A DNA stretch of 41,914 bases, from assembly GCF_014698445.1 (NCBI RefSeq), contig NZ_JACJSZ010000028.1:1-41914 (forward strand). The letters run 5' to 3'. The notes under the pieces were generated by a model. That model did no database searches. It was not told where the DNA came from and saw only the letters and a list, made by a program, of their open reading frames with translations. Position numbers and translations under genes: made by a program. This DNA comes from Microcystis elabens FACHB-917. Lineage in GTDB: Bacteria > Cyanobacteriota > Cyanobacteriia > PCC-6307 > Cyanobiaceae. Shown here in pieces: positions 29,470 to 40,716 of the stretch (positions are counted from its first letter, which is position 1; every line of letters starts with the position of its first letter).

Positions 29470-31641
29470 ATGGCTGACGCTGCATGTTGCCCTGCAGAGG
29501 ATCACTTCAAAGCCATGGAACTCTATCTTCAGGCAAAGGAGCATTTCGAGTCAGCGCGGTATCGCGAAGCCATCAGATGCCTCTCAGCCCTACGCAACGA
29601 TGCGAGATATGGTCTGAAAGCAAATGCAAACATCGGCAGCTGTCTCCTGATGATGGGGCTGCCCCGTCCTTCGTTGCGATTTCTCGATCGTGCGTTGCGG
29701 CTGGACTCCGAATTCCTCCCAGCCCTCCTGAACAGGCTCAAGGCACTCAGTGTGGAGCAGCGCCATGAGGACGTGATGGAACTTGCTGAGAAACTGCTCG
29801 GGTGCTGCCCGCAGGAGAAGGAAGAGGAGGTCTGGTTAGTCCTCGCGGCTTCCCTGCGCGCCACCGATCGGGAGGAGCGTGCACTGGAAGTGGTGGGGCG
29901 CTGGCTGAGCCGGTTTCCCCGGAGCCTGGAGGGCCACCTGCTGGAAGCGGAACTTCTCTCAGAGCGGGGGGACAACGAGCAGGCCGTGAGGACCCTGGGC
30001 AGAGCCCTTCGTATCGCCCCTGCTGCAGAAAAAGTGTACGCACACCTGAGCGTCGTGATGATCCGCATGAAACGCTATGAAGCAGCACTTCAATATGTCG
30101 ATAAGGCGTTGGAGTTCGATCCAGATTCGTTCATCTACCACTGCCGCCGTGGAAGAGTCCTGCAGCTGACTGGTGACTGGAGAGGCGCCGCAACGTCCTA
30201 CACCAGGGTTGCATCAATGCGACCTCAGTCTGCCATCTACCAGCTTAATCAGCACCTTATCCTGCCAGGGATCCCCGGAAGCCGGGAGGAGATTGAGGAG
30301 GCCCGCAGACGTTTCCTCATTGGACTCTCGATGGTGGAAAACAGGCGTGAGATCAGCCTGGATGTGGGTGATGAGGCGATCCCACACACCTTCGAGCTCG
30401 CTTATCACAACCAGAACGATCGCAGACTGCTGGAGCGTTACATCGACTTGATGCGCACACTTTGCGCACCACTTCTCCAGGAAATCCGCCAGCACAGGCC
30501 CCCTCTCAGGAGAGACCTACCTTCGCCAAGGGACAGGCGGCTGCGAATCGGATTTCTCTCTAGGCACTTCTCCGGCCACAGCAATACGATCGCCTTCTCT
30601 GGCTTGATCCGCCATCTCGACCGCAAACAGTTCGAGGTGGCTCTGATCCACACGGCAAATTCGAAGCGAGATGCGGTCCGTGACAGTCTCGACGCGATCT
30701 GCGAGGAGGTCATCTTGCTATCTGAAGATTATTTCGAAGCCGACAAGACACTGATATCCGCAAATCTGGACATCCTTTTCTTCACAGACCTTGGAATGAA
30801 TCCCTATGAGTTTATTCTACCATTTTTATGCACTACGCCCATACAGATCACAGGCTGGGGCATCCCCCATACGTCGGGAATCCGCGAGATTAACTACTAC
30901 CTCTCCTCTGCTGGCCTTGAACCGAGCGGCGCAGAAGATCATTACACGGAAAGACTGATCCGGCTGCCCGGTGTTCTCCCATGTCACTTTGAGGACGCAG
31001 GTCTGAGTCTCACACCGCTGCCGCGTGAGTACTTCTTTCTTCCGCCAGGCGATACCCTTGTGGGCTGTCTGCAGGGCCTGCACAAGCTCCATCCTGATTT
31101 TGATCTGCTCTTGGAGAAGATCGCCCAAGATAATCCGGAAGCTGCATTTGTCTTTGTTGAAGACTCGATACCATCGCGAACCGGACTCTTTCTGGAGAGG
31201 CTCTCGAGGACCGCTCCCTCCGTAAGAGAGCGCTGCATCCCTTTAGCGTTCATGAGTCGAGCTGAGTACCACGCCCTTTGCAATTGCCTCGATCTCCTAC
31301 TCGATCCCATTTATTACGGTTCAGGGATCACTTTTTTCGAGGCCTGTTTTGTCGGCACTCCCATTGTCACCCTGGAAGGCTCAAACCTACGCTCCCGGGT
31401 CGTTGCCTGCGGCTACCGCGAAATGGGCATCGAAGACCCGCCGATCACAGCGAGTGAAGCGGAGTATGTCAGCCTGGTGAAGGAGCTTTGCAACAACTCA
31501 GAGCGGCGCAACAAGCTCAAGACCTCGATTCTGGCAAACAACCATCGAGTGTTCAATCGAATGGATTATGTTCGCCATTTTGAAGAATTCTGCTTTCAGG
31601 CTGTGGCCACGAGGCAGGAGCAAGACAAATTGAGGGCCTAG
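29470..31641 (+). CDS. TPR-containing O-GlcNAc transferase (OGT/SPINDLY)-like glycosyltransferase
   Basis: The 723-residue protein has an N-terminal array of TPR helices (about residues 12-265; e.g. LYLQAKEHFESARYREAI, YVDKALEFDPDS). A GT41-like C-terminal half follows: LRIGFLSRHFSGHSNTIAF, a GTB first domain, PIQITGWGIPHTSGIREINY, then LDLLLDPIYYGSGITFFEAC and VGTPIVTLEGSNLRSRV. The latter two match the UDP-sugar-binding region of OGT/SPINDLY. Such enzymes attach a sugar O-linked to Ser/Thr of proteins. It lies directly after the pilin gene, behind that gene's terminator, and 45 bp before a methyltransferase gene. GC is below that of the core genes. Pilin as substrate is inference. Confidence 0.85.
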   Translation: MADAACCPAEDHFKAMELYLQAKEHFESARYREAIRCLSALRNDARYGLKANANIGSCLLMMGLPRPSLRFLDRALRLDSEFLPALLNRLKALSVEQRHEDVMELAEKLLGCCPQEKEEEVWLVLAASLRATDREERALEVVGRWLSRFPRSLEGHLLEAELLSERGDNEQAVRTLGRALRIAPAAEKVYAHLSVVMIRMKRYEAALQYVDKALEFDPDSFIYHCRRGRVLQLTGDWRGAATSYTRVASMRPQSAIYQLNQHLILPGIPGSREEIEEARRRFLIGLSMVENRREISLDVGDEAIPHTFELAYHNQNDRRLLERYIDLMRTLCAPLLQEIRQHRPPLRRDLPSPRDRRLRIGFLSRHFSGHSNTIAFSGLIRHLDRKQFEVALIHTANSKRDAVRDSLDAICEEVILLSEDYFEADKTLISANLDILFFTDLGMNPYEFILPFLCTTPIQITGWGIPHTSGIREINYYLSSAGLEPSGAEDHYTERLIRLPGVLPCHFEDAGLSLTPLPREYFFLPPGDTLVGCLQGLHKLHPDFDLLLEKIAQDNPEAAFVFVEDSIPSRTGLFLERLSRTAPSVRERCIPLAFMSRAEYHALCNCLDLLLDPIYYGSGITFFEACFVGTPIVTLEGSNLRSRVVACGYREMGIEDPPITASEAEYVSLVKELCNNSERRNKLKTSILANNHRVFNRMDYVRHFEEFCFQAVATRQEQDKLRA

Positions 31642-31686: not shown

Positions 31687-32430
31687 ATGGACGAAGACCA
31701 CCCTTCATTGCCAACAAAATACTTCTTCAACGCATCGGCAAGGCGCCTCAACTCTTTATTAGCAGCGATTCCTTCCCCAGCACGATACCTGGAAGTGGGT
31801 GTTGAGACAGGGCAGACCTTCTTCGAAGTCTCCGCGGCCTTCAAAACCGCCGTCGATCCCAAGTTCCTGTTCGACAGGGAGGCGGCGCCGAAAGGTGATT
31901 CGGTCGAATACTTCGAGATCACCAGCGACAGCTTTTTCTGCGATGTAAGGAGAGATGTCAAGTACGATCTCATCTTCCTCGATGGCCTTCATACATGGGA
32001 TCAGACTTATCGAGACTTCTGCAACGCCCTGCTCATCACACACGACCGCTCGATCATCCTTCTGGATGATATCTTTCCCTGCGACGTATTCTCCTGTAGT
32101 CGTGATCAGGTCGAGGCTGTGATGATGCGTCAGTTCATGACAAATGACCCTAGCAACGCGTGGCATGGAGACACATACAAGATCATTCCACTTATCAGGA
32201 CATTTCATCCTCTTCTGAGCTATTGCACCATCATCACCGATGGAAATCCACAAACACTTGTCTGGCGCTCGCCGCAGCCCGCGATCGCCCAGCCAGTTCT
32301 CCCTGATGTAGGAGGGTTGAACATGCCAGCGCTTGACTATCTATGGTTTCTCCGGCATCAGGAAAGCTACAACCTGATGAACGAACAGGATGCTCTCGCA
32401 CTGGTCATCAGCTCGCTCCAGCTCGCCTGA
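31687..32430 (+). CDS. Class I SAM-dependent methyltransferase (Methyltransf_24-like)
   Basis: The 247-residue protein has ARYLEVGVETGQTFFEVSAA (SAM glycine loop, about residues 32-52), a second-strand acidic region, and YDLIFLDGLHTWDQTYRDFC (residues about 97-116). This is the pattern of short methyltransferases common in O-antigen and glycan clusters. The C-terminal ~60 residues are unique. It follows the OGT-like gene by 45 bp and is probably cotranscribed, so it may methylate a sugar or the glycosylated protein. The downstream region holds broken pilin DNA. Confidence 0.72.
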   Translation: MDEDHPSLPTKYFFNASARRLNSLLAAIPSPARYLEVGVETGQTFFEVSAAFKTAVDPKFLFDREAAPKGDSVEYFEITSDSFFCDVRRDVKYDLIFLDGLHTWDQTYRDFCNALLITHDRSIILLDDIFPCDVFSCSRDQVEAVMMRQFMTNDPSNAWHGDTYKIIPLIRTFHPLLSYCTIITDGNPQTLVWRSPQPAIAQPVLPDVGGLNMPALDYLWFLRHQESYNLMNEQDALALVISSLQLA

Positions 32431-32536
32431 CTGCTCGATAACAACGCCACCCCCGCGTCACAGTCTCCACCCGCCGGGTTCCGCCCCTGGAGGCCGCACA
32501 ATCCTTCCGCAGCCGCGGTTCAGGGCTGCTAAGGCG

Positions 32537-32840
32537 CTCGGTTCGCGGACGAGGCAGAAGGCCGGGCCGCAGCGCATCAGCACCTCCCCCAACAGCAGCC
32601 GGAGTCTCAGCGCCACCAGCAGCTCCGCCAGCGAGAAGCCCACCGGGCCCTTAGCGCGGTTTCCGTGGCAGACAGCAAGACCATGGAGTGGCTTCAGCAC
32701 AGAGTGACAAGACCGCTCCGCTCTGGGGATCCGGCAGTCAACCGCCCGTACCCTGCCGACCCAGGCGGATGACCCCGAGGGGCAGGGCCACCACCACGCA
32801 ACGCACCAGATCGGTGCCCTCGGTGCTCAGCAGCACGGTG
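32537..32840 (-). pseudogene. Broken copy of the minor-pilin genes (PilW-like end plus FimT-like end)
   Basis: This segment is a degenerate partial copy of 39781-40345. Bases 32537-32580 match the PilW-like gene near 39781-39828 (GAAGGCCGGGCCGCAGCGCA shared). Then about 250 bp are missing and the match resumes at the prepilin N-terminus (GFSLAELLVALRL encoded; intact: GFSLMELLVALSL). It continues through 32755-32838 into the end of the FimT-like gene (CACCAGATCGGTGCCCTCGG shared). It therefore spans two neighbouring pilin genes. No functional protein is expected. Confidence 0.8.
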
Positions 32841-32885
32841 CCGACGCCGGCAGGCTGACCGCCTTGGAGTTCTGTCGATCCTGTG

Positions 32886-33911
32886 TCAAACAGATTGCGG
32901 CAACCCATCACTGCCGCTCACCTGCGGGCGCGTACCCCGCGAAGGCCGAACAACACGCTGCATCCACTCGCGAGCGCTCATTTCATTGGTTAACATACGC
33001 ACATCATCCCGTATCATGCATGCTCCAAAGACGACCCGGATATCTTCGATATGTGGGTGTGGGTTGAGCGGATCGACAAAGAAAACAACTATGTGGCAGT
33101 CACCTCTGAGGATCTCCGTAGCGATTTCGATGTCGCCTCCCTTCGGTCCTGACTGGTACCTCACCACCAGATCATTAAGAGCCCTTGTGTTAGCAATTAC
33201 CTCTCTGCCGGTGCCACCCGTCGAAAGAATGCGCTTGAACTGACTCAGGTCCCGTTCATGGTCGATGGCAAACTCCACCATGCGTTTTTTCATCCCATCG
33301 TGGGCGATCAAAGCGATGGTCATGTCCGACACCATGCGTGGAGGCGCATGGGTGCCCGCAGTGATGCTGGCCGCAATTTCTCCTTCGGCCGGGTTTGGTA
33401 AGGTCTCTTTTTCCTTTAGAACTGGCTTCGGCGGAGTAGACTGACGGTTTCTGTTCACGTCGTGCGATGCCTCCTCAGAGAACCACTCACGCACGGAGCC
33501 GGAATTCATGAGGCGCTTGGCGTGCCACTGATCAGAGAGCCGCATCAGCGCGAGGTTCTCGGGATTGAGCCAGTGGGAGGTCAGTGGGGTTAGAAAGGCC
33601 CAGATGATGCTGCAGATTTGGCTTACGACAAGGTAGCTGAGGACTGTAACGCCACCCTCGGAGCGCGATGGAAGACGCGTGACACCACATTGCGCCTCAA
33701 GAAAGGCCTTCGTCTCCGGGGCGACCGGCATCACACGAGAATCCGAGCCCTTAATGATCCGGTCGTATGTGCCTCCTGTGAAAACGAACCAGAACTGAGC
33801 CAATAGTGCGCTGTTGGCCCGGTGCAACTCGTCTAGCAACTTCGAAAGCGCATTGTTTACCGATGGCTCGTCATGGCTGGCAAGAATACCGATCAACGTC
33901 TTCTCCACCAT
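32886..33911 (-). CDS. Tandem methylglyoxal-synthase-like protein
   Basis: The 341-residue protein has two MGS-like domains. The C-terminal one (about 196-325) keeps the MgsA pattern: H204-D205-K208 in ALIAHDGMKK (E. coli H19, D20, K23), TGGTG at 231-235, SGPKGGD ending in D260 (E. coli D71), and D280, H287, D290 in FFVDPLNPHPHIED (E. coli D91, H98, D101). The N-terminal one (about 5-145) echoes the same order (GILASHDEP, FTGGTY, SRSEGGV, then the LTPLTSHWLN region) but lacks the Asp/His set, so it is probably non-catalytic. A strong Shine-Dalgarno (GGGGGGAGG at 33917-33925) precedes ATG 33911. MGS converts dihydroxyacetone phosphate to methylglyoxal. It stands alone amid debris. Confidence 0.8.
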   Translation of the reverse strand: MVEKTLIGILASHDEPSVNNALSKLLDELHRANSALLAQFWFVFTGGTYDRIIKGSDSRVMPVAPETKAFLEAQCGVTRLPSRSEGGVTVLSYLVVSQICSIIWAFLTPLTSHWLNPENLALMRLSDQWHAKRLMNSGSVREWFSEEASHDVNRNRQSTPPKPVLKEKETLPNPAEGEIAASITAGTHAPPRMVSDMTIALIAHDGMKKRMVEFAIDHERDLSQFKRILSTGGTGREVIANTRALNDLVVRYQSGPKGGDIEIATEILRGDCHIVVFFVDPLNPHPHIEDIRVVFGACMIRDDVRMLTNEMSAREWMQRVVRPSRGTRPQVSGSDGLPQSV

Positions 33912-34143
33912 CTAAACCTCCCCCCTCGCGTCAAAGATATGTCGCCTGTACAAGGCCCGTCAACCCAACCAGAGCTGTGCGCCAACATCCGACGCAACCC
34001 GTGTGTTGCTCCTGAGGCTTTCTTCCAGGAGAAGATGTCTTTTCCCTTTGAACAGTGGCAGTGGTTCTGTCCACCGGAGAGAGCAGGGTCGATATCTGGT
34101 CGCCCAGCCTGTCGGACCCTGGCGGCTTGAGACCCTTCCCGCC
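33912..34143. other. Upstream region of the tandem MGS gene
   Basis: About 230 bp with no recognisable gene. It holds the Shine-Dalgarno and presumably the promoter of the minus-strand MGS-like gene, and the downstream end of the two-gene small-ORF unit. GC is moderate. A dyad GGGTAACAC-like signal or terminator was not found by eye. Confidence 0.35.
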
Positions 34144-34275
34144 TCAAGCCAGCCCCACCCCGTGCAACAGCAGGTCGAGACCCAGTGCCGCCGTGGACAG
34201 CCGCAGGATCATCGAGCCGATGCGGCGAACGGAGCGCAGCAGAACGTAGAGAGCCAGAAAGGAAGGGGGAATCAT
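34144..34275 (-). CDS. 43-residue membrane peptide coupled to the preceding ORF
   Basis: Starting at ATG 34275, the peptide MIPPSFLALYVLLRSVRRIG continues to a second hydrophobic/amphipathic stretch ending LLLHGVGLA. Its ATG overlaps the stop of the upstream 62-codon ORF (ATGA), the signature of translational coupling. It is too short for family assignment. The size and the coupled soluble partner could fit a small toxin-like or regulatory unit, but nothing shows this directly. Confidence 0.45.
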   Translation of the reverse strand: MIPPSFLALYVLLRSVRRIGSMILRLSTAALGLDLLLHGVGLA

Positions 34276-34460
34276 CGTCGGTACTCGCGGGGAAAGGGAC
34301 GCACCTGACCGGCTGGAACACCGAAGGTGGGCAGGCGCCGCTGGCCGAGGGGAAAACGCCGCACCCAGACGCAGTCGCTGCTGTCGTCGACATTGACCAC
34401 CTGGTAGGGGGCGTCGGGGCTGGCCCCGAGGCACACCAGGTCGCCGGGCTGGAGGTCCAT
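34272..34460 (-). CDS. Small conserved-looking protein (62 residues)
   Basis: The ORF from ATG 34460 encodes MDLQPGDLVCLGASPDAPYQ, then DSSDCVWVRRFPLGQRRL, and ends in REYRR. The pattern suggests a small beta-barrel (SH3/KOW-like) domain. GGAGG lies just inside and before the start in an A/G-rich setting. It overlaps the 43-residue membrane peptide gene. The composition is normal coding for this genome, unlike the surrounding debris, so I take it as real. I do not recognise the family with certainty. Confidence 0.5.
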   Translation of the reverse strand: MDLQPGDLVCLGASPDAPYQVVNVDDSSDCVWVRRFPLGQRRLPTFGVPAGQVRPFPREYRR

Positions 34461-35442
34461 GGTTGGTAGCCGAGGATCGAACTGCCCCCATGCAACAGCA
34501 GGCACGGAGGGGAATAGGTAAAAATGCTTAAGCCCTGACAGGATGGCTGCGGCCCGGCTGCCGCAATGGTTTTGCAGCAGCACGCTGGCATTGGAGCGTT
34601 CCAATGGCGCCTCATGGGGGGCAAGAACCGCACCAGGCGGTACGGCAAACCCAACGACGCCGAGCCTTGAAAGGAGCAATCAGCAGAAAGAGAACCTGCT
34701 GATTCCGGCCCAAAGGGCGCCTTCTCTGTCTGTCTCCACGTCCGCCAGGATCAGGCCGGCCGGCTCAACGCCTCCGGTGCCGGCCTCTGGGCCAGCGGCC
34801 TGAGCGAATCGGTCAGCGCTCTGGCACGGCAGCGCTCCTTCTGGCTGGAGGCCGATGGCAGCTTCCGGCTGCAGGTGCCCTTGCGCGAGTGGCGGCGAGC
34901 AGCAGCGTTCCATTCGGATGGAGCTAGCGCCGCACACCCGAGGCGCACGTCCCGGGATCTGCACCTGGTGATGGAGCGCCTGGCGTCAAGGTCGATCATG
35001 AGGACACAGCGCTGTACAGCGTGCCCCACTCCCCAGCCCTGCCCCTCCATCGGCTGAGCCGGAACAATCGTCCCCATCCGGGGGGATCGATACGGAGGAT
35101 GGCAGCGCCACTATGGCGACTCCAGCCATGGAGAGCGCCATGACCGAGGGCCGCCTTCCAGAGCCACCGAGGTCGTTGTCGCTGGCTTCGCCCAGACGCG
35201 ACAACCTGCAGATCCGCTCACTGCAGCTGCAGACCCTGCAATGGGAATTTGATCGCAGCCACTTGTACGAACAGGCATCCTTCACTGCTGCCACCGGCGC
35301 TGGCTTTGCGGCTCGGCGCTGAGCAAACCCATTGGCTTTGCTGCCGAGCTCTCCCTGCGGTGGTGCCTTTCCGGGAACCGGCTCTACCCGGCACCGTGCA
35401 GGGCGAGGGCAAAGTAGCGGCCCCGGCAGCCGGCAGGTGCGC
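34461..35442. other. Gene-poor stretch with a coding-like fragment
   Basis: About 980 bp have no intact gene. On the plus strand 34707-34890 reads as ordinary protein (GRLNASGAGLWASGLSES, RSFWLEADGSFRLQVPLREW) with no start and then decays, so it looks like the end of a lost gene. I do not recognise it. Around 34835 it shares the 20-mer TCAGCGCTCTGGCACGGCAG with the VapB gene near 20840, in the same orientation, which may be coincidence. The rest is Arg/Pro-rich in all frames and looks non-coding. Confidence 0.45.
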
Positions 35443-35988
35443 CCTGACTGACGGACACAAATCCGAGAGACCCTGCCTCGCAGTGGGTCTCAGCTCATTG
35501 GGTGGGCAGGGAGCCGTGAAAGCTTGACAGTTGTCCGACCTGTCCAGCCCCTCGTGGATTCCCACGCCCGGCTTCATGGTGGGCTGAACGACTTTCTCCG
35601 TCAGCACTGTCCTGTCTGCGACGAGCGCCACCTGGCGCTGCTGGGCTGGATGGTGGCTGGGCTGCTGCTCAGCCAGACCGTCTGTTTCGGCCACTGGCAG
35701 CGGGCACTGTCGCTGCAGCATTGCCTGGCCGCGAGCTGGCGGCACCGCTGCAGGCGTTGGTTCGCCAACAGCCGCATTGACGTCGAAGCCGTATGCGGCT
35801 CCCTGCTGCTCTGGGCGATTCAGCACTGGCAAATGCCAGGCCAGGCCTTGCATCTTGCGCTCGATACCACGGTGCTCTGGAACCGTTTCTGCGTCCTGGC
35901 CCTCTCCGTGGTCTGCCATGGCCGGGCGATTCCCCTGCTCTTGCAGACGCTTGAGCATCCCAGTGCCAGCGTTAGTGCTGCGGTTGTG
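35443..35988 (+). mobile_element. Truncated IS4-like element with transposase remnant
   Basis: The left end (35443 onward, CCTGACTGACGGACACAA) matches the element end at 131-1 in inverted orientation. A transposase fragment runs from TTG 35524 to about 35988: LVDSHARLHGGLNDF, then ALDTTVLWNRFCVLALSVV and HGRAIPLLLQTLEHPSASV. LDTT and the RAIPL region are those of IS4-type DDE transposases (first catalytic Asp). The protein is cut after about 155 of an expected 350-450 residues, so the remaining DDE residues and the right end are missing. The sequence after ~35988 is unrelated. Confidence 0.72.
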
Positions 35989-36032
35989 ACCGGGGGTAAG
36001 GAATACCTTGAGACCTGAATCTTCCCCAGCAA

Positions 36033-36812
36033 CTACAGCGTGGCCATACGGCGACGAAGTTTTGCCGCAAAGCGTAACGCCACAGCAGGTACCAGCACCA
36101 GAGGTGGCGCAGGAACATCCTCCATCGGTTGCTCACCGCTAACCTCCACATTGTCCAAGCCAAATTCAAGAGTTCGTTCGGGTTCCATATCGAGAATCTG
36201 ATCGGGCTCCATAGCCGTAAAGAAAGAGTTGCTCACATTTTCCAAGCTTGTATCGTCAAAATCTTCTCCCTGTACAGAAGTCATAGTAAATGCTTTTGGC
36301 GACGCAAGCGAGCTTGGGTCGAAAACAGACGCAAATGGAAAATGTATTCGAAGACTGGCCGCATTGGCGGGCGACGATAGCTCTTGCCCGGGTCGCAAAT
36401 GCAGTAGTTTCTGAAGCTTTGGCGGAATGTGGCGAGTCACCCTGCCAATAAGATGCCGATGTAAAGTCTTGGAATCAGTCGAGAAGATATCAAAAATTAC
36501 TTTTGAGATATTAAGGGTTTTTCTCGTGTTATTCTTTACATGTATGCGAGCTTGGAAGTTGATGGTATCTGGGTAAGCCAGCGAAGGGTTAAATGGCATA
36601 TATGACACTGTATAGGTACCTAGAGGGACAAGCTTCAGATTGTTGACCAACTGCATATCTTCGGCAAATACATTGTGGTTAACAACATCCAGCATCATGA
36701 CAGCTTTAGCCTGATTGGCGGCAACATCCCAACTGGCCAAGAGCAATGCAGCCGCGATTGATGGTGCAGCAGCGGAAAGAAGACGTGACAGGGGCGAGAT
36801 GGCTGGGCCCAT
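36033..36812 (-). CDS. Secreted protein with a PEP-CTERM-like sorting tail
   Basis: The 259-residue protein begins with a signal peptide (MGPAISPLSRLL, hydrophobic AAALLLASW, cleavage near ANQAKA). It ends in VPAPPLVLVPAVALRFAAKL followed by RRRM: a Pro-rich motif, a membrane helix and a basic cluster in the order of PEP-CTERM sorting signals. Cyanobacterial versions read VPGPLPLLG...RRLRKR. The middle has a beta-rich appearance (NFQARIHVKNNTRKTLNIS) and no known domain. Such proteins are exported and handled by an exosortase; none is in this window. Codon use is AT-richer than the core, suggesting acquisition. Confidence 0.62.
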   Translation of the reverse strand: MGPAISPLSRLLSAAAPSIAAALLLASWDVAANQAKAVMMLDVVNHNVFAEDMQLVNNLKLVPLGTYTVSYMPFNPSLAYPDTINFQARIHVKNNTRKTLNISKVIFDIFSTDSKTLHRHLIGRVTRHIPPKLQKLLHLRPGQELSSPANAASLRIHFPFASVFDPSSLASPKAFTMTSVQGEDFDDTSLENVSNSFFTAMEPDQILDMEPERTLEFGLDNVEVSGEQPMEDVPAPPLVLVPAVALRFAAKLRRRMATL

Positions 36813-36916
36813 TGCGCGAGAGTTTTTACTGACACTTTTGTAATTTGCGCATGACCCCCATTTTTGACAACTATGACAGTTGGCAAACCGTCTACCGCCG
36901 TCGCCTCCTTTTCGAT

Positions 36917-37262
36917 ACCGCCTGGCTTGGACCGGCTGGTACTACGCGCAGGTGGTGCAGGGTGGCGAGCGTTTCGTGGCCCTCTCCGAGGGTCTGCAGA
37001 ACTCGCTGGCCGCCTGCGGTGGGGTGCCGGCGGAACTGCGTAGCGACCGGTTTGAGATGGCGTACCGCAATCGGAACGGCAGTTTTTCAGCCGACATCAC
37101 CCCCTCTATCACGCCCTCTGCAGTCACTACGGACTGGCCTACAGCCGCAACAACCTGGGAGTGGCGCATGATCAGGGCCGCATGGAGAGCGCCCATGACC
37201 ATCTCAAACGAGTGATCGAGCATGCGCTGCTGCTGGGCGGCAGCAGCAATTTCGATTCGCTA
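36917..37262 (+). pseudogene. IS21-family IstA transposase remnant
   Basis: A piece of the IstA integrase core is readable: FRYRLAWTGWYYAQVVQGGE, RFVALSEGLQNSLAACGG, VPAELRSDRFEMAYRNRN. After a frameshift near 37100 it resumes as HALCSHYGLAYSRNNLGVAH, DQGRMESAHDHLKRVIEHAL and LLGGSSNFDSL. These match IS21 transposases (GGVPAELRTD..., RNNLGVAHENG...). Both termini and the IstB partner are missing. The fragment ends abruptly at 37262, where minor-pilin DNA begins. Non-functional. Confidence 0.85.
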
Positions 37263-37322
37263 CCCCACAGCAGCAGCCCCAGGCCCACATGCACCAGCAG
37301 CTCCATCAGCGAGAAGCGCGCC
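37263..37322 (-). pseudogene. Fragment of a minor-pilin gene (prepilin N-terminus)
   Basis: About 60 bp match 40087-40147, the N-terminal region of the PilW-like gene. On the minus strand it encodes ARFSLMELLVHVGLGLLLWG (intact: GFSLMELLVALSLGLLLWG) with the cleavage Gly changed to Arg. It begins with CCCCACAGCAGCAGCCCCAGG, the same point at which the homology resumes in the broken copy at 32537-32840. It is joined directly to the IS21 remnant. Far too short to function. Confidence 0.78.
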
Positions 37323-37867
37323 TGGGGCTCCCACATGTCCTGCGCCCAATGGATGGCCGCCACCCGTCACCCTGAGTGGCACGGGAGACACACTCAGCAT
37401 GAGGGCTCAGGATGCTCTGGGGCCATGACAGTTGCACCACCGGCTCCCCAGGCGGTGAAACCGGGTCCCGCAACAGCCGTCTGCTGATGCGCCTGCTGGC
37501 CTTGGCCGACAGCGTGAGGGTATGGCAGGTGTTCAACACACCAGCCCAATCGATGAAGATCCACGCGGCCTCACGGCCCTGCCGCGCAGCATGGGCGAGG
37601 GTGCCTACCAGAGCCATTGCACCGGTCCCGTGTCATTCAGGTGGAGGCCAACCGTCTTCAACCAGGCGAACGCTGCCCCTGAGTGGCAGGCGTGGAGCCT
37701 ACGGTGGCGCAGCTGAGAGTTGTTGGTGGCCTGTCCACTCGAGGGGCTTGCTCGAAGGGCGGGAAATTGTCTCAGAGAATTAAGTTGAGAGCAAGCATAA
37801 AGAACACTATCCTCTATTGTTGGCGTGCCCCAGGTTTGTCATGTCGAGTCGGGTTGAAGGGCGACGA
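37323..37867. other. Gene-poor stretch with unidentified coding-like fragments
   Basis: About 545 bp without an intact gene. On the minus strand 37440-37610 reads as plausible protein (GTLAHAARQGREAAWIFIDW, AGVLNTCHTLTLSAKASRR) without a convincing start or end. It is probably a decayed gene of unknown kind. The last 80 bp before 37868 are AT-rich and contain the 3' boundary of the Coq4-like gene. No RNA gene or terminator was identified. Confidence 0.4.
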
Positions 37868-38650
37868 TTATAGGGAAAGCTTTTCTTGCACAAGCGGGTT
37901 AGATTCCCAAGAACGAATTCCAGAAGAAACAGCGACCACACCAATGTCGCGACGCAATTGCTGAAGATCCTGAGCAAGCAAAGTCTCCCAAGGAATAGCA
38001 AATAGTTTCTTTGCTTGTTTTCCCATTTCCAGGCCAGAGCTAATTGCCTCAAAGAGGCCCTGTGGCGACATCGCCTGAACTTCCGTCGGTGTAGTCTCAT
38101 CGATAGGCTCCGCCTGATTCATCCACCCCATTAATAGCGCAGAAAGATTAAGAAAAGCAAAAGCCGGAAAGTTGTATTGGCTCACACTTAGGCTAACAAC
38201 TCCGAACTCCCCGAAGTTGTCAAGGCTGAATCCCGTAAGGATGTGATGAAGATCATGGGTTTGCAGCACGCGAAAGTTTATGTAATCTCCATCGGTTTGA
38301 AGGTTGTTGAAAAAGGCCTCTTCGGGGAAGAAGTTGATGTCGTATCCATAGCCGTCTAATACTCTGATGTACGTATGACCCAGAGATCCTTTTGGCATTG
38401 CTCTCATGGCTTCCGCATCGAACGGAGGCATCACATGACGCGATGCTATGAGGGCTGCACTTTCTGGATCCTGATTTAGCATGGCTTCGCAGGCCTGCAT
38501 GGGAGGGGAGTGGGTAAATTTCCTGGCCAACTCAAAGACATTATTGGCATCTTGGCCTCCACCAGCAGCCAAATCGACCAAGTCCAGAAACGAGTTGATC
38601 TTTTCAGTTGTTGCAAAATGATTTATGTAGCGATAGCCCACTGGACACAA
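37868..38650 (-). CDS. Coq4-family protein
   Basis: The ~260-residue protein matches the Coq4 family: MPKGSLGHTYIRVLDGYGYD, FFPEEAFFNNLQ, YINFRVLQTHDLHHILTGFS, with the HDxxH pair and the following Glu (FGEFGV) forming the family metal motif. In eukaryotes Coq4 is needed for ubiquinone synthesis, organising the complex and acting on the ring C1. Cyanobacteria make plastoquinone instead, so the role here is uncertain. The start is unclear (TTG 38650 or GTG 38641; no nearby ATG). Composition is clearly AT-richer than the core, suggesting transfer into this debris-rich segment. Confidence 0.8.
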   Translation of the reverse strand: MCPVGYRYINHFATTEKINSFLDLVDLAAGGGQDANNVFELARKFTHSPPMQACEAMLNQDPESAALIASRHVMPPFDAEAMRAMPKGSLGHTYIRVLDGYGYDINFFPEEAFFNNLQTDGDYINFRVLQTHDLHHILTGFSLDNFGEFGVVSLSVSQYNFPAFAFLNLSALLMGWMNQAEPIDETTPTEVQAMSPQGLFEAISSGLEMGKQAKKLFAIPWETLLAQDLQQLRRDIGVVAVSSGIRSWESNPLVQEKLSL

Positions 38651-38752
38651 TGGAGAGAGGCAATTGTAGGCTACTGCTCCTCCGCGGGGGGTGGCAATAT
38701 ACCGAAACAGATTGTAAACACAAGCCCAAGAAGGTATTGAGCCTGGCTTTGT

Positions 38753-39073
38753 CTAGTGAGAATTGAACGATGTCTTGCCTTTGTTAATAACGAATTCAGC
38801 CCGAGCTGGACATGCTGTATCAATCGCCATGCTCGGAGAGACTCTGAACGCCAGTGGTTGCTCAGCCAGCTGGAGCACAGCACGGATGAACGCCTGTTTG
38901 CAAGGGATCTGGATCGGCCGGCCATGGCTGGCGGCACCTTTGATGACCTCGCCGTTGAGCCGGATCTGTACAGCTTTGTTGATGGGGACAATGTGAAAGC
39001 CAGGTCTGCCATCGTTCTTGCGTTGGGTGAGCGTCACGGCGATGGGCTGTTGATGTTCATCAGCTGCTCTCAT
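38753..39073 (-). CDS. Unrecognised ORF upstream of the Coq4-like gene
   Basis: The 106-codon minus-strand frame reads as fairly normal protein (QRKNDGRPGFHIVPINKAVQ, GRPIQIPCKQAFIRAVLQL, ARAEFVINKGKTSFNSH). It has no recognised motif, no good start signal, and a competing plus-strand frame of similar length. It may be a fragment of a lost gene. It ends about 100 bp before the Coq4-like start. Confidence 0.3.
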   Translation of the reverse strand: MRAADEHQQPIAVTLTQRKNDGRPGFHIVPINKAVQIRLNGEVIKGAASHGRPIQIPCKQAFIRAVLQLAEQPLAFRVSPSMAIDTACPARAEFVINKGKTSFNSH

Positions 39074-39369
39074 CGGAAGCTGGATTTGAGCTGACCGGTC
39101 TCAAGGTGTCATCTCGGGCACGCATCACCAGGCTGGTGACTTTGTCGCAAAATCTGGTGAAACGCCTGATCGGTCACCTTCCAGAGGGGATCCAACAACG
39201 GCTTCGGGATCGGATCGTCGAGGTTCTTGCAGCACCTTGATCTCACCCCGGAGCAGCGCCGCGGCTTCCCGTGGCCTCACGGCGCTGCGGCGCAGGCTGG
39301 AGTCGTACCAGGCAAGTGGTGCCTGTCCCAGCTGCTCCGCCCAGTCGCGCGCCATCGGGTCATTCGTGA

Positions 39370-39534
39370 TCAGGCGCCGCGCTCGCGGTCGCTGCGGATC
39401 AGGGATTCCGGAGACTCCTCCCATGGCAGTGCCTGTCGCTGCTGGCATCGCTCGGCGCTCCTCTCCAGCGCCAGCCGGCGCTGCAACAGGCGGTGAAGCG
39501 GATCCGGTACATCGCGTATCTGCAGGGAGGCCAT
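39370..39534 (-). pseudogene. Remnant of a FitA-like antitoxin gene
   Basis: The frame from ATG 39534 gives MASLQIRDVPDPLHRLLQRR, the start of FitA/VapB-like ribbon-helix-helix antitoxins, and ends with RQALPWEESPESLIRSDRER, a typical end of such proteins. It has only 54 residues where about 75-85 are expected; the central helices are missing, pointing to an internal deletion. Downstream on the same strand (39125-39369) LITNDPMARDWAEQL-type sequence in frame-shifted pieces may be what is left of a toxin gene, but no PIN acidic residues can be identified. Confidence 0.5.
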
Positions 39535-39608
39535 GGCAAGACCACAGGTGCAATCAATGCACTCAGACTGCATGCAAAGCGCATGTTCTGGCCGCGCGAT
39601 GGAGTGTC

Positions 39609-40187
39609 TCATCCCCCCGCCAGCACCCGCGCCTCCGTCTCAATTCGCTGGACGCCACCGCCTGAGGGCTCGAAGTCCTGCCGCAGCCGCAGGTGCACCA
39701 ACCCATCCGGTTCCACGGCGGCCTCCAGCCCCGGCTGGCTGAGTCCATCCAGCAGCACCCGGTTCTGGGCCGCTCCGGCGCTCGGTTCACCGTCGAGCCC
39801 GAAGGCCGGGCCGCAGCGCATCAGCACCCGCCGGCGCCAGATGGCGCTCGGCGGGCTGCCCACCGTGTAGGTGATCGGTCCGGCCGGCGTCTGCAGCTGC
39901 AGCACCGGATCCCGGCCCCCCAGACCGCAGGCGGCGCCGGCTCCCTGGGCCAGGTCCACCTGGGTGGCCCGCTGCAGATCGTTCCGCAGCAGGGCCAGCA
40001 CCCGCCGCTGCTGGCTCCGCTCCCGCACGTGCCGCACCAGGCGCTCCACCTGCCGGCCCTCCGCCACCAGAGACTGCAGCACCACGCCCCACAGCAGCAG
40101 CCCCAGGCTCAGGGCCACCAGCAGCTCCATCAGCGAGAAGCCCGCCGGGCCCCTGATGGATCGGCCGTGGACATACAGCAGGGCCAT
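39609..40187 (-). CDS. Minor pilin, PilW/PulJ-like
   Basis: The 192-residue prepilin has leader MALLYVHGRSIRGPAG and mature start FSLMELLVALSLGLLLWGVV with Glu at +5. A long amphipathic helix follows (ERLVRHVRERSQQRRVLALL, RNDLQRATQV), then a globular part with two Cys (AACGLGG, LMRCGPAFG) and a beta-rich end. This is the layout of PilW/PulJ-type minor pseudopilins that prime pilus assembly. It is the last of four consecutive minus-strand pilin genes, 31 bp after the FimT-like gene. Two broken copies of parts of this gene exist at 32537-32840 and 37263-37322. Confidence 0.82.
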   Translation of the reverse strand: MALLYVHGRSIRGPAGFSLMELLVALSLGLLLWGVVLQSLVAEGRQVERLVRHVRERSQQRRVLALLRNDLQRATQVDLAQGAGAACGLGGRDPVLQLQTPAGPITYTVGSPPSAIWRRRVLMRCGPAFGLDGEPSAGAAQNRVLLDGLSQPGLEAAVEPDGLVHLRLRQDFEPSGGGVQRIETEARVLAGG

Positions 40188-40218
40188 GGCGAAGCTCCGG
40201 TGAAAAGAAGGGGGTGGC

Positions 40219-40716
40219 TCAGGAGTAGGGATCCGGCAGGCAGCCGCCGGGCCCATGCCGTCCCAGGCGGGTGACCCCGAGGGGCAGGGCCACCACCACG
40301 CAGCGCACCAGATCGGTGCCCTCGGTGCTCAGCAGCACTGTGCCGCCATCGATGATCAGCCCGTTGCCGGTGAAGCGCACCGCCGCCGGCAGGTTGTGGC
40401 TGAGATTCACCGCAGGCCCTCCCCCCAGGCCCTCGCCCAGCTCCAGGGCCGCCCCCTCGCAGGCCGGCAGGCTGCCCGCCTGGGGTTCCCGCCAGCCCGT
40501 GGCCTCCAGGCTCAGGGCGCAGGGCTGGCCGCTGCGCAGGGCGGCATCCCGTCCCCGCTCCAGCCCCACCAGCACACGGCGGCTGGCCCCCTCCAGCCGG
40601 GCGGCGGCCAGGTCCCGGCTGGCGGAGCCGAGCCCCAGCTGGGCCAGCAGTCCCACCAGCACCAGCGCCAGCAGGGTCTCCGGCAGGGTGAAGCCCCCCG
40701 GTTCAGGGTGTGCCAC
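40219..40716 (-). CDS. Minor pilin, FimT/GspH-like
   Basis: The 165-residue prepilin starts at GTG 40716, giving the short leader MAHPEPGG before FTLPETLLALVLVGLLAQLG (Glu at +5, residue 13). The rest has the GspH/FimT pattern: ASRDLAAARLEGASRRVLVG, Gly-rich beta region, LRSGQPCALSLEATGW, and a C-terminal Cys pair (DLVRCVVV, GGCLPDPYS). The start lies inside the end of the upstream pilin gene, indicating coupled translation. A longer frame upstream is Arg-rich and not pilin-like. FimT-type pilins can bind DNA in transformation systems, which would fit the comEC gene. Confidence 0.82.
   Translation of the reverse strand: MAHPEPGGFTLPETLLALVLVGLLAQLGLGSASRDLAAARLEGASRRVLVGLERGRDAALRSGQPCALSLEATGWREPQAGSLPACEGAALELGEGLGGGPAVNLSHNLPAAVRFTGNGLIIDGGTVLLSTEGTDLVRCVVVALPLGVTRLGRHGPGGCLPDPYS

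Follow-up and report, generated by a model that had tools for sequence, protein, structure and literature searches.

Methylglyoxal synthase (MgsA, EC 4.2.3.3; profiles NF003559 and TIGR00160; PDB 1b93, 6f2c, and 2x8w) has one domain, roughly 150 residues long (152 in E. coli), and forms a hexamer of identical domains. Methylglyoxal is toxic, and cells must restrain its synthase. The MGS fold also occurs in larger proteins. Carbamoyl-phosphate synthetase (CPSase) carries an MGS-like domain fused to its catalytic unit, and this domain has no MGS activity and binds effectors. Cyanobacteria encode MGS-YegS/DAGK fusions, in which the partner is lipid- or NAD-kinase-like (PF00781, YegS_C). Synechocystis Sll0036, described with MGS and an NADK motif (PMC11897720), is probably of the same kind.

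The protein described here is encoded by a cyanobacterium in a window of 41,914 nucleotides, the whole stretch of DNA that was analyzed. In place of one MgsA-type domain of about 150 residues, its 341 residues hold two MGS folds. The C-terminal half resembles MgsA in fold and catalytic residues and the N-terminal half resembles it in fold, a catalytically stripped copy fused in front. Like the kinase fusions, it sets an MGS domain inside a larger cyanobacterial protein, but the DAGK_cat or YegS_C domain that follows MGS in the fusions L002, L006, and L003 is absent from it by Pfam. Like the CPSase domain, the N-half is an MGS fold joined to a catalytic unit, but its partner is MGS itself, with no CPSase fusion by Pfam. 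On balance, we lean toward reading the protein as a two-domain MGS in which a catalytic C-domain is shaped or regulated by a retained pseudo-MGS N-domain.

The gene and its C-terminal domain

The open reading frame was found on the strand and at the coordinates originally predicted (Table 1). The frame is coding, as a 374-aa homologue from an unclassified bacterial metagenome-assembled genome (L030) aligns to residues 3–320 with an E value of 1e-90, relative to the candidates within that scan. The G+C content of the gene is 55.6%, compared with 66.3% for the window. A very strong Shine-Dalgarno sequence had been claimed and is indeed present ahead of the ATG. A sigma-70-like consensus scan of positions 32400–34700 returned three matches against 0.6 expected, which does not in itself indicate function.

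Table 1. Coordinates of features in and around the tandem gene
Feature	Position	Strand	Basis or remark
Tandem methylglyoxal synthase gene	32886..33911	minus	ORF, 341 codons plus stop; homologue L030
N-terminal pseudo-MGS domain, residues 1–153	33453..33911	minus	AlphaFold2 model, Foldseek and VIA, residue table
Linker, residues 154–195	33327..33452	minus	Mostly low-confidence in model; pLDDT <50 at residues 157–189
C-terminal MGS domain, residues 196–323	32943..33326	minus	NF003559 profile, VIA superposition, residue table
Shine-Dalgarno-like GGGGGGAGG	33917..33925	minus	Sequence; 5 nt upstream of ATG
Sigma-70-like promoter match TTGACG-18-TATCTT (9/12)	33934..33963	minus	Consensus scan
Accessory insert	32524..39623	.	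BLASTN against same-genus regions L117–L122
Decayed partial second copy of pilin-like gene	32516..32849	minus	BLASTN 78–85% to intact copy, direct repeats

MGS was the sole family that the whole protein matched in Pfam at E ≤ 1. The methylglyoxal synthase profile NF003559, which aligns to residues 194–321, scored 97.9 bits against the C-half alone and 111.4 bits against the whole protein, passing its curated cut-off of 84, and PF02142 was above cut-off for the C-half. No other MGS in the genome exceeds the NF003559 cut-off. TIGR00160 scored 91.5 bits against the whole protein, under its equivalog cut-off of 146.9; all four tandem proteins scanned whole, including that of the window, fell below it. 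Because this cut-off was missed, we assign the C-half as a putative MgsA-like catalytic domain rather than as a TIGR00160 equivalog. A phmmer search of PDB sequences gave 11 matches at E ≤ 1, every one MgsA. In the AlphaFold2 model of the full-length protein (pLDDT 78.4, pTM 0.73), the C-half superposed on Bacillus subtilis MgsA 6f2c_G with Z 19.1 at 1.8 Å over 123 residues, so the original prediction passed the superposition check proposed for refuting it.

Residue positions below follow E. coli MgsA numbering. The set H19, D20, K23, D71, D91, H98, and D101 is complete in the C-domain, as H204, D205, K208, D260, D280, H287, and D290; all of these but D280, the D91 equivalent, had been named in advance as active-site residues, and each was correct. 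S254 is also present, and W316 is the equivalent of W126. We take D20, D91, and D101 to have roles in MgsA. Roles in MgsA have been given to H19, K23, S65, D71, and H98 (PMC7843640, section 9), all of which the window C-domain contains. It deviates from canonical MgsA at T47 (G233) and R107 (G296), and its phosphate loop reads TGGTG in place of the TGTTG of MgsA.

These deviations bear on the alternative that the C-domain of the window and L030 has lost methylglyoxal synthesis and works on, or senses, some other phospho-compound. T47 and R107 are altered in both proteins, and the window C-domain has a long branch. The C-domain of L030 (L030:5983–7104) carries T47D, S65P, D91N, and R107A while keeping D71, H98, and D101, and its activity may have changed. 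Against this alternative, both proteins keep H19, D20, K23, T45, G46, T48, G66, D71, H98, and D101, the window protein passes the NF003559 cut-off, and six of 36 other MGS domains likewise depart from T47, with S or N in its place. We consider a changed activity quite improbable. Under the reading that we favor, the C-domain would convert dihydroxyacetone phosphate (DHAP) to methylglyoxal and phosphate, as suggested by its residues and family. A catalytic role is also supported by the position of the L030 gene, which is followed on its own strand by the gene of a class I fructose-bisphosphate aldolase, a DHAP-producing enzyme.

The N-terminal domain

A profile search of each half had been proposed and was clearly positive for the C-half only. 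The N-half alone had no Pfam match and scored weakly against NF003559 (18.2 bits, E 0.0015). The N-halves of relatives matched the same profile at E values of 1.5e-5 (Acidovorax), 2.5e-5 (L030), 1.6e-4 (Herbaspirillum), 0.004 (Alcaligenes), and 0.11 (Aquimonas). The two halves matched each other in BLASTP with E 6e-5 (one comparison), and their alignment score of 53 was reached by none of 5,000 shuffles of the N-half (mean 26.9, maximum 52), which rules out chance likeness. Profiles of the two halves aligned in hhalign with 60.8% probability and E 8.2e-5 over 74 columns. A profile built from 12 N-domains found 11 PDB sequences at E ≤ 1, exclusively MgsA, with a best E value of 8.5e-8.

The model of the N-half alone (AlphaFold2, pLDDT 88.8, pTM 0.85) had 25 Foldseek matches at E ≤ 0.001, MgsA without exception, and the first non-MgsA match in the ranking was an unrelated kinase at E 0.024. 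On Thermus MgsA 2x8w, the model superposed with Z 15.7 at 2.3 Å over 125 residues, as the original prediction of an MGS-like fold required, and the 12 MgsA entries ranged from Z 13.3 to 15.7. The first non-MgsA rows of the structural alignment were the CPSase MGS-like domain, which was more distant (Z 9.1–10.8, with one apo entry at 7.3); one PDB title among these matches names the allosteric ligand IMP.

The window N-half has lost K23 (S), D71 (V88), D91 (T108), H98 (L115), and D101 (E118), and has retained H13-D14 (equivalent to H19-D20), T45-G46-T48, G86-G87, R124 (R107), and W143 (W126). The original claim that this half lacks the acidic and histidine residues must be corrected for H19-D20. 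We note that the K23 position is alignment-dependent in N-domains (A or R in L030), with lysine absent either way. Since V88 and L115 replace the catalytic base D71 and H98, the N-half does not qualify as an MgsA enzyme. The predicted duplicated architecture, with a non-catalytic N-half and a catalytic-looking C-half, agrees with the profiles, the structure models, and 28 homologues of the same layout.

The tandem family: distribution, conservation, and possible regulation

Homologues in other genomes confirmed that tandem MGS is a family and more than a one-genome curiosity. We assembled 29 tandem proteins, a set selected by the tandem trait itself: the window protein, that of L030 (50% overall identity to it), and 27 from Pseudomonadota; L108, near-identical to L107, was left out. 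Scanning genome contigs yielded 44 loci, and open reading frames examined at 22 of them comprised nine of other kinds and 13 tandem genes (L030, ten from Herbaspirillum/Duganella, and one each from Alcaligenes and Aquimonas). A plasmid search, with matches taken from 20 listed of 63 records, added a 310-aa protein of Acidovorax sp. DW039 (WP_338799346.1). This protein is annotated merely as "methylglyoxal synthase," so its two-domain layout is masked. The Acidovorax, Herbaspirillum, Duganella, Alcaligenes, and Aquimonas homologues share the layout and an N-half without D71 and H98, but their linker is shorter, their C-domain has the canonical T47 and R107, and they are about 30% identical to the window protein.

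The family is scattered. Strong matches to the N-domain profile (E ≤ 1e-58, a mark valid for Pseudomonadota only) occurred in at least 9 of 200 genomes from the order of the Duganella genome and at least 11 of 398 from its phylum, with four matching genomes common to both lists. The single match among 39 genomes of the L030 phylum was L030's own genome (E 3.2e-50), and the single match among 373 cyanobacteria was the window's own (E 4.9e-50). These counts are lower bounds, as large groups were scored by the best candidates per genome (18 for the Duganella order, 10 for cyanobacteria, and 9 for the phylum). Below these, the matches fell off sharply (3e-8 or worse in the order and phylum, 3.7e-4 in the L030 phylum, and 5.7e-11 in cyanobacteria), and those examined were single-domain or kinase-fused MGS. 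When the single N-half sequence was searched against 386 cyanobacteria, only the window's genome matched. Among the papers listed from a mainly open-access literature, no title or abstract opening described an MGS with such a duplicated layout, which is weak evidence that this variant of a known enzyme lacks a description.

Residue conservation differed between the two halves across the family. All 29 C-domains keep H19, D20, K23, T45, G46, T48, G66, D71, H98, and D101; S65 and D91 are present in 28 (the exception being L030), and T47 and R107 in 27 (the exceptions being the window and L030). All 29 N-domains lack K23, D71, and H98, have E at D101, and are invariant at G46, G69, G70, and R107. 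T48 is kept in 28 N-domains, D91 in 28 (all but the window), and H19 in 16. G15 and L74 are common to N-domains and absent from all 29 C-domains and from 36 other MGS domains, while E101 occurs in one of those 36.

Tryptophan at position 126 marks both halves: every one of the 58 tandem domains carries it, against 0 of the 51 other MGS domains counted. These controls consist of the 36 other domains, a set without L017 (degenerate) and L010 (a cNMP fusion), and a further 15, some mutual near-duplicates, that a motif filter caught among 20 loci. The separate motif filter behind the residue table missed L002, L016, and L097, and L017 represents the degenerate group in that table. To our knowledge, the marker has not been reported before. 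It links the two halves, whether through descent or a common interface. The combination of W126 in both halves with D71 and H98 confined to the C-half makes the family easy to find and test.

If the N-half were a decaying remnant of the duplication without a role, its lost catalytic residues and poor MGS-profile scores would be expected. It is nevertheless present in all 29 tandem proteins of distant taxa, a set chosen by that trait, and its conservation is close to that of the C-half. Mean pairwise identity among the 27 Pseudomonadota proteins was 64.6% for N-domains and 66.6% for C-domains (351 pairs, with N higher in 148), and the window and L030 proteins are 53.9% identical in the N-half and 52.3% in the C-half. 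Across 10 Herbaspirillum/Duganella genes, median dN/dS was 0.063 for the N-domain, with 43 of 45 pairs left after dS filtering, and 0.039 for the C-domain, with all 45 left, which shows that purifying selection acts on the N-domain in the genes tested. Low dN/dS and identity close to that of the C-domain argue that the N-half is maintained in Herbaspirillum/Duganella, and we give decay hardly any credence.

A second alternative, and the main rival, is that the N-domain is purely structural, filling half of the positions in an MgsA-type assembly and stabilizing it without an effector. W126, located in the C-terminal helix of each domain and absent from the 51 other MGS domains counted, would fit such an interface. 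Several pocket residues also differ between the N-domains of the two lineages (T45 is T or V; S65 is S/K, or mostly Y; G66 is R/F, or G). On the other hand, the pocket-loop glycines G46, G69, and G70 and R107 are invariant in all N-domains, and Arg replaces both T47 and P67 in 26 of 27 Pseudomonadota N-domains (Acidovorax has G and H), a pattern that resembles a retained or changed anion site. We regard a solely structural role as rather unlikely.

The regulatory part of the favored reading draws on the conserved pocket loop, the conserved R107, and the CPSase precedent. For the original proposal of regulation, scaffolding, or a different ligand, the support is indirect and comes from N-domain conservation, low dN/dS, and that precedent. 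The N-domain, predicted to be incapable of MGS chemistry, would be kept to pack against the C-domain and would occupy subunit positions of a pseudo-hexamer. Since MgsA is hexameric, three tandem chains could form a mixed 3+3 particle. Within it, the N-domain would tune the C-domain in cis, probably via an anionic metabolite held in the residual phosphate pocket, with effector binding modeled on the MGS-like domain of CPSase. Several features count against this reading: T47G and R107G in the window protein and the four C-domain substitutions of L030, the missed TIGR00160 cut-off, Herbaspirillum/Duganella gene neighbors without a metabolic hint, the low raw identity between N-domains of the two lineages, and the modest N-versus-C profile probability.

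We more tentatively extend this reading to the family as a whole, and think the extension could well be wrong. The scattered proteins would form a self-regulating MGS family, in which a duplication-derived, Trp126-marked pseudo-MGS acts as an effector sensor for its catalytic twin within a mixed active/inactive assembly. Arg107 is invariant in the other MGS domains examined (variable in 0 of 36), and the window and L030 proteins keep it in the N-domain only. If the extension is true, the pseudo-domain of these two proteins would wholly take over the role of Arg107, and that this role is allosteric is a guess. Because the same two-part design is present in unrelated bacteria, it is probably a working form of the enzyme, and perhaps a self-regulating one. 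Conversion of a homo-oligomer into a catalytic-plus-regulatory pair has happened in other enzyme families, and a synthase with its own conserved, catalytically dead copy would offer a natural test of this transition.

The origin of the tandem design is a question apart from its function. The quick tree was built from 96 domain rows minus six near-identical tandem proteins (12 rows), or 84 rows; the careful tree also omitted K_L017, X_L010, K_L014, and seven further rows, leaving 74. The proposed phylogeny of two-domain homologues gave a clear answer for one half only: in the careful tree the N-domains formed one clade (99/87), while a joint C-domain clade lacked support (19/0), and both results are limited by 131 columns and long branches. 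A single C-domain origin, supported at 92 in the quick tree only, is possible. Long branches may have inflated support for the N-clade, since the raw identity of the window N-domain shows no preference (24% to the N-domains of the other lineage and 27% to the best single-domain MGS).

The unsupported C-clade and the 24% identity between N-domains of the two lineages are what would be expected if the window/L030 and Pseudomonadota tandem proteins arose by separate duplications. Contrary to that history, the N-domains form one clade and share G15, L74, and E101, features absent or nearly so from other domains, and W126 marks both halves in both lineages. The N-domains likely had one origin as judged from sequence, and we consider separate duplications unlikely.

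Genomic setting of the tandem gene

BLASTN comparison with same-genus genomes upheld the claim that the tandem gene sits in accessory DNA. The flanks of the insert are adjacent or at most about 0.35 kb apart in four of six same-genus regions (G017, G007, G005, and G011), and other DNA lies between them in the remaining two (G022 and G432), so the insert that carries the gene is variable and about 7 kb long. Acquisition of the gene on this insert is probable, and transfer from another phylum is likely. A contaminant contig is an unlikely source, because the genome encodes PsaA/PsaB and the flanks match same-genus genomes at 68–94%. The window is one complete contig (C43) of the 3.68-Mb host genome, and of 14 control genomes Synechococcus elongatus alone matched the PsaA/PsaB family.

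A phage or defense origin was also rejected, since the tandem protein had no match in PHROGs or PADLOC at E ≤ 0.01. Two viral-contig scans turned up no relative, and the one MGS from a third, on L029, has a single domain. Phage records gave 21 matches; the 20 that were listed align to the C-half alone, and none covers 80% of the query.

Gain on the insert would have occurred in a genus whose own MGS-lipid-kinase fusion copies examined are MGS-degenerate. The host's other MGS-like gene, L002 (G000:C56:145665-149006, 1522-2826), is such a fusion; its MGS part scores 58.8–61.6 bits, below the NF003559 cut-off, and its kinase part is well above the family cut-off. In its same-genus homologue L017, H19, D20, K23, T47, T48, S65, G66, and H98 are lost and D71, D91, and D101 are kept, and the MGS domain is degenerate in L002, L016, and L017 alike. 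Among cyanobacterial MGS-kinase fusions more broadly, 12 of 16 tabulated keep H19, D20, K23, D71, H98, and D101, and L006 scores 174.3 bits. Another same-genus gene, L010 (G019:C1:2381692-2385108, 1147-1902), places MGS behind a cyclic-nucleotide-binding domain (PF00027) and, at 128.7 bits, is above the NF003559 cut-off; its product is an apparent cNMP-sensing methylglyoxal synthase.

In Herbaspirillum/Duganella, the conserved neighbors of the tandem gene, GreA/B, DUF3422, EAL-HDOD, RlmJ, and a CLC channel (Pfam on L055 only), give no metabolic hint. The window insert also encodes a Coq4-family protein (37871–38752, minus strand; PF05019, 58.9 bits) and a low-G+C open reading frame of 259 aa (36033–36812, minus strand) with no match above cut-off in Pfam and none in PHROGs or PADLOC at the thresholds applied. 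Three insert stretches (34144–34709, 35441–35992, and 36916–37261) are scattered elsewhere in the window's and same-genus genomes at 71–87% identity, and are possibly old mobile-element pieces. At the insert edge, the decayed pilin-like copy is an internally deleted duplicate of an intact gene at about 39.76–40.35 kb (39760–40352), whose N-methylation motif match is weak and below cut-off. Beyond that edge lie a Methyltransf_24 protein (31687–32430) and, adjoining it, a 723-aa protein (29470–31641) that contains TPR repeats and matches glycosyltransferase family 41 (PF13844).
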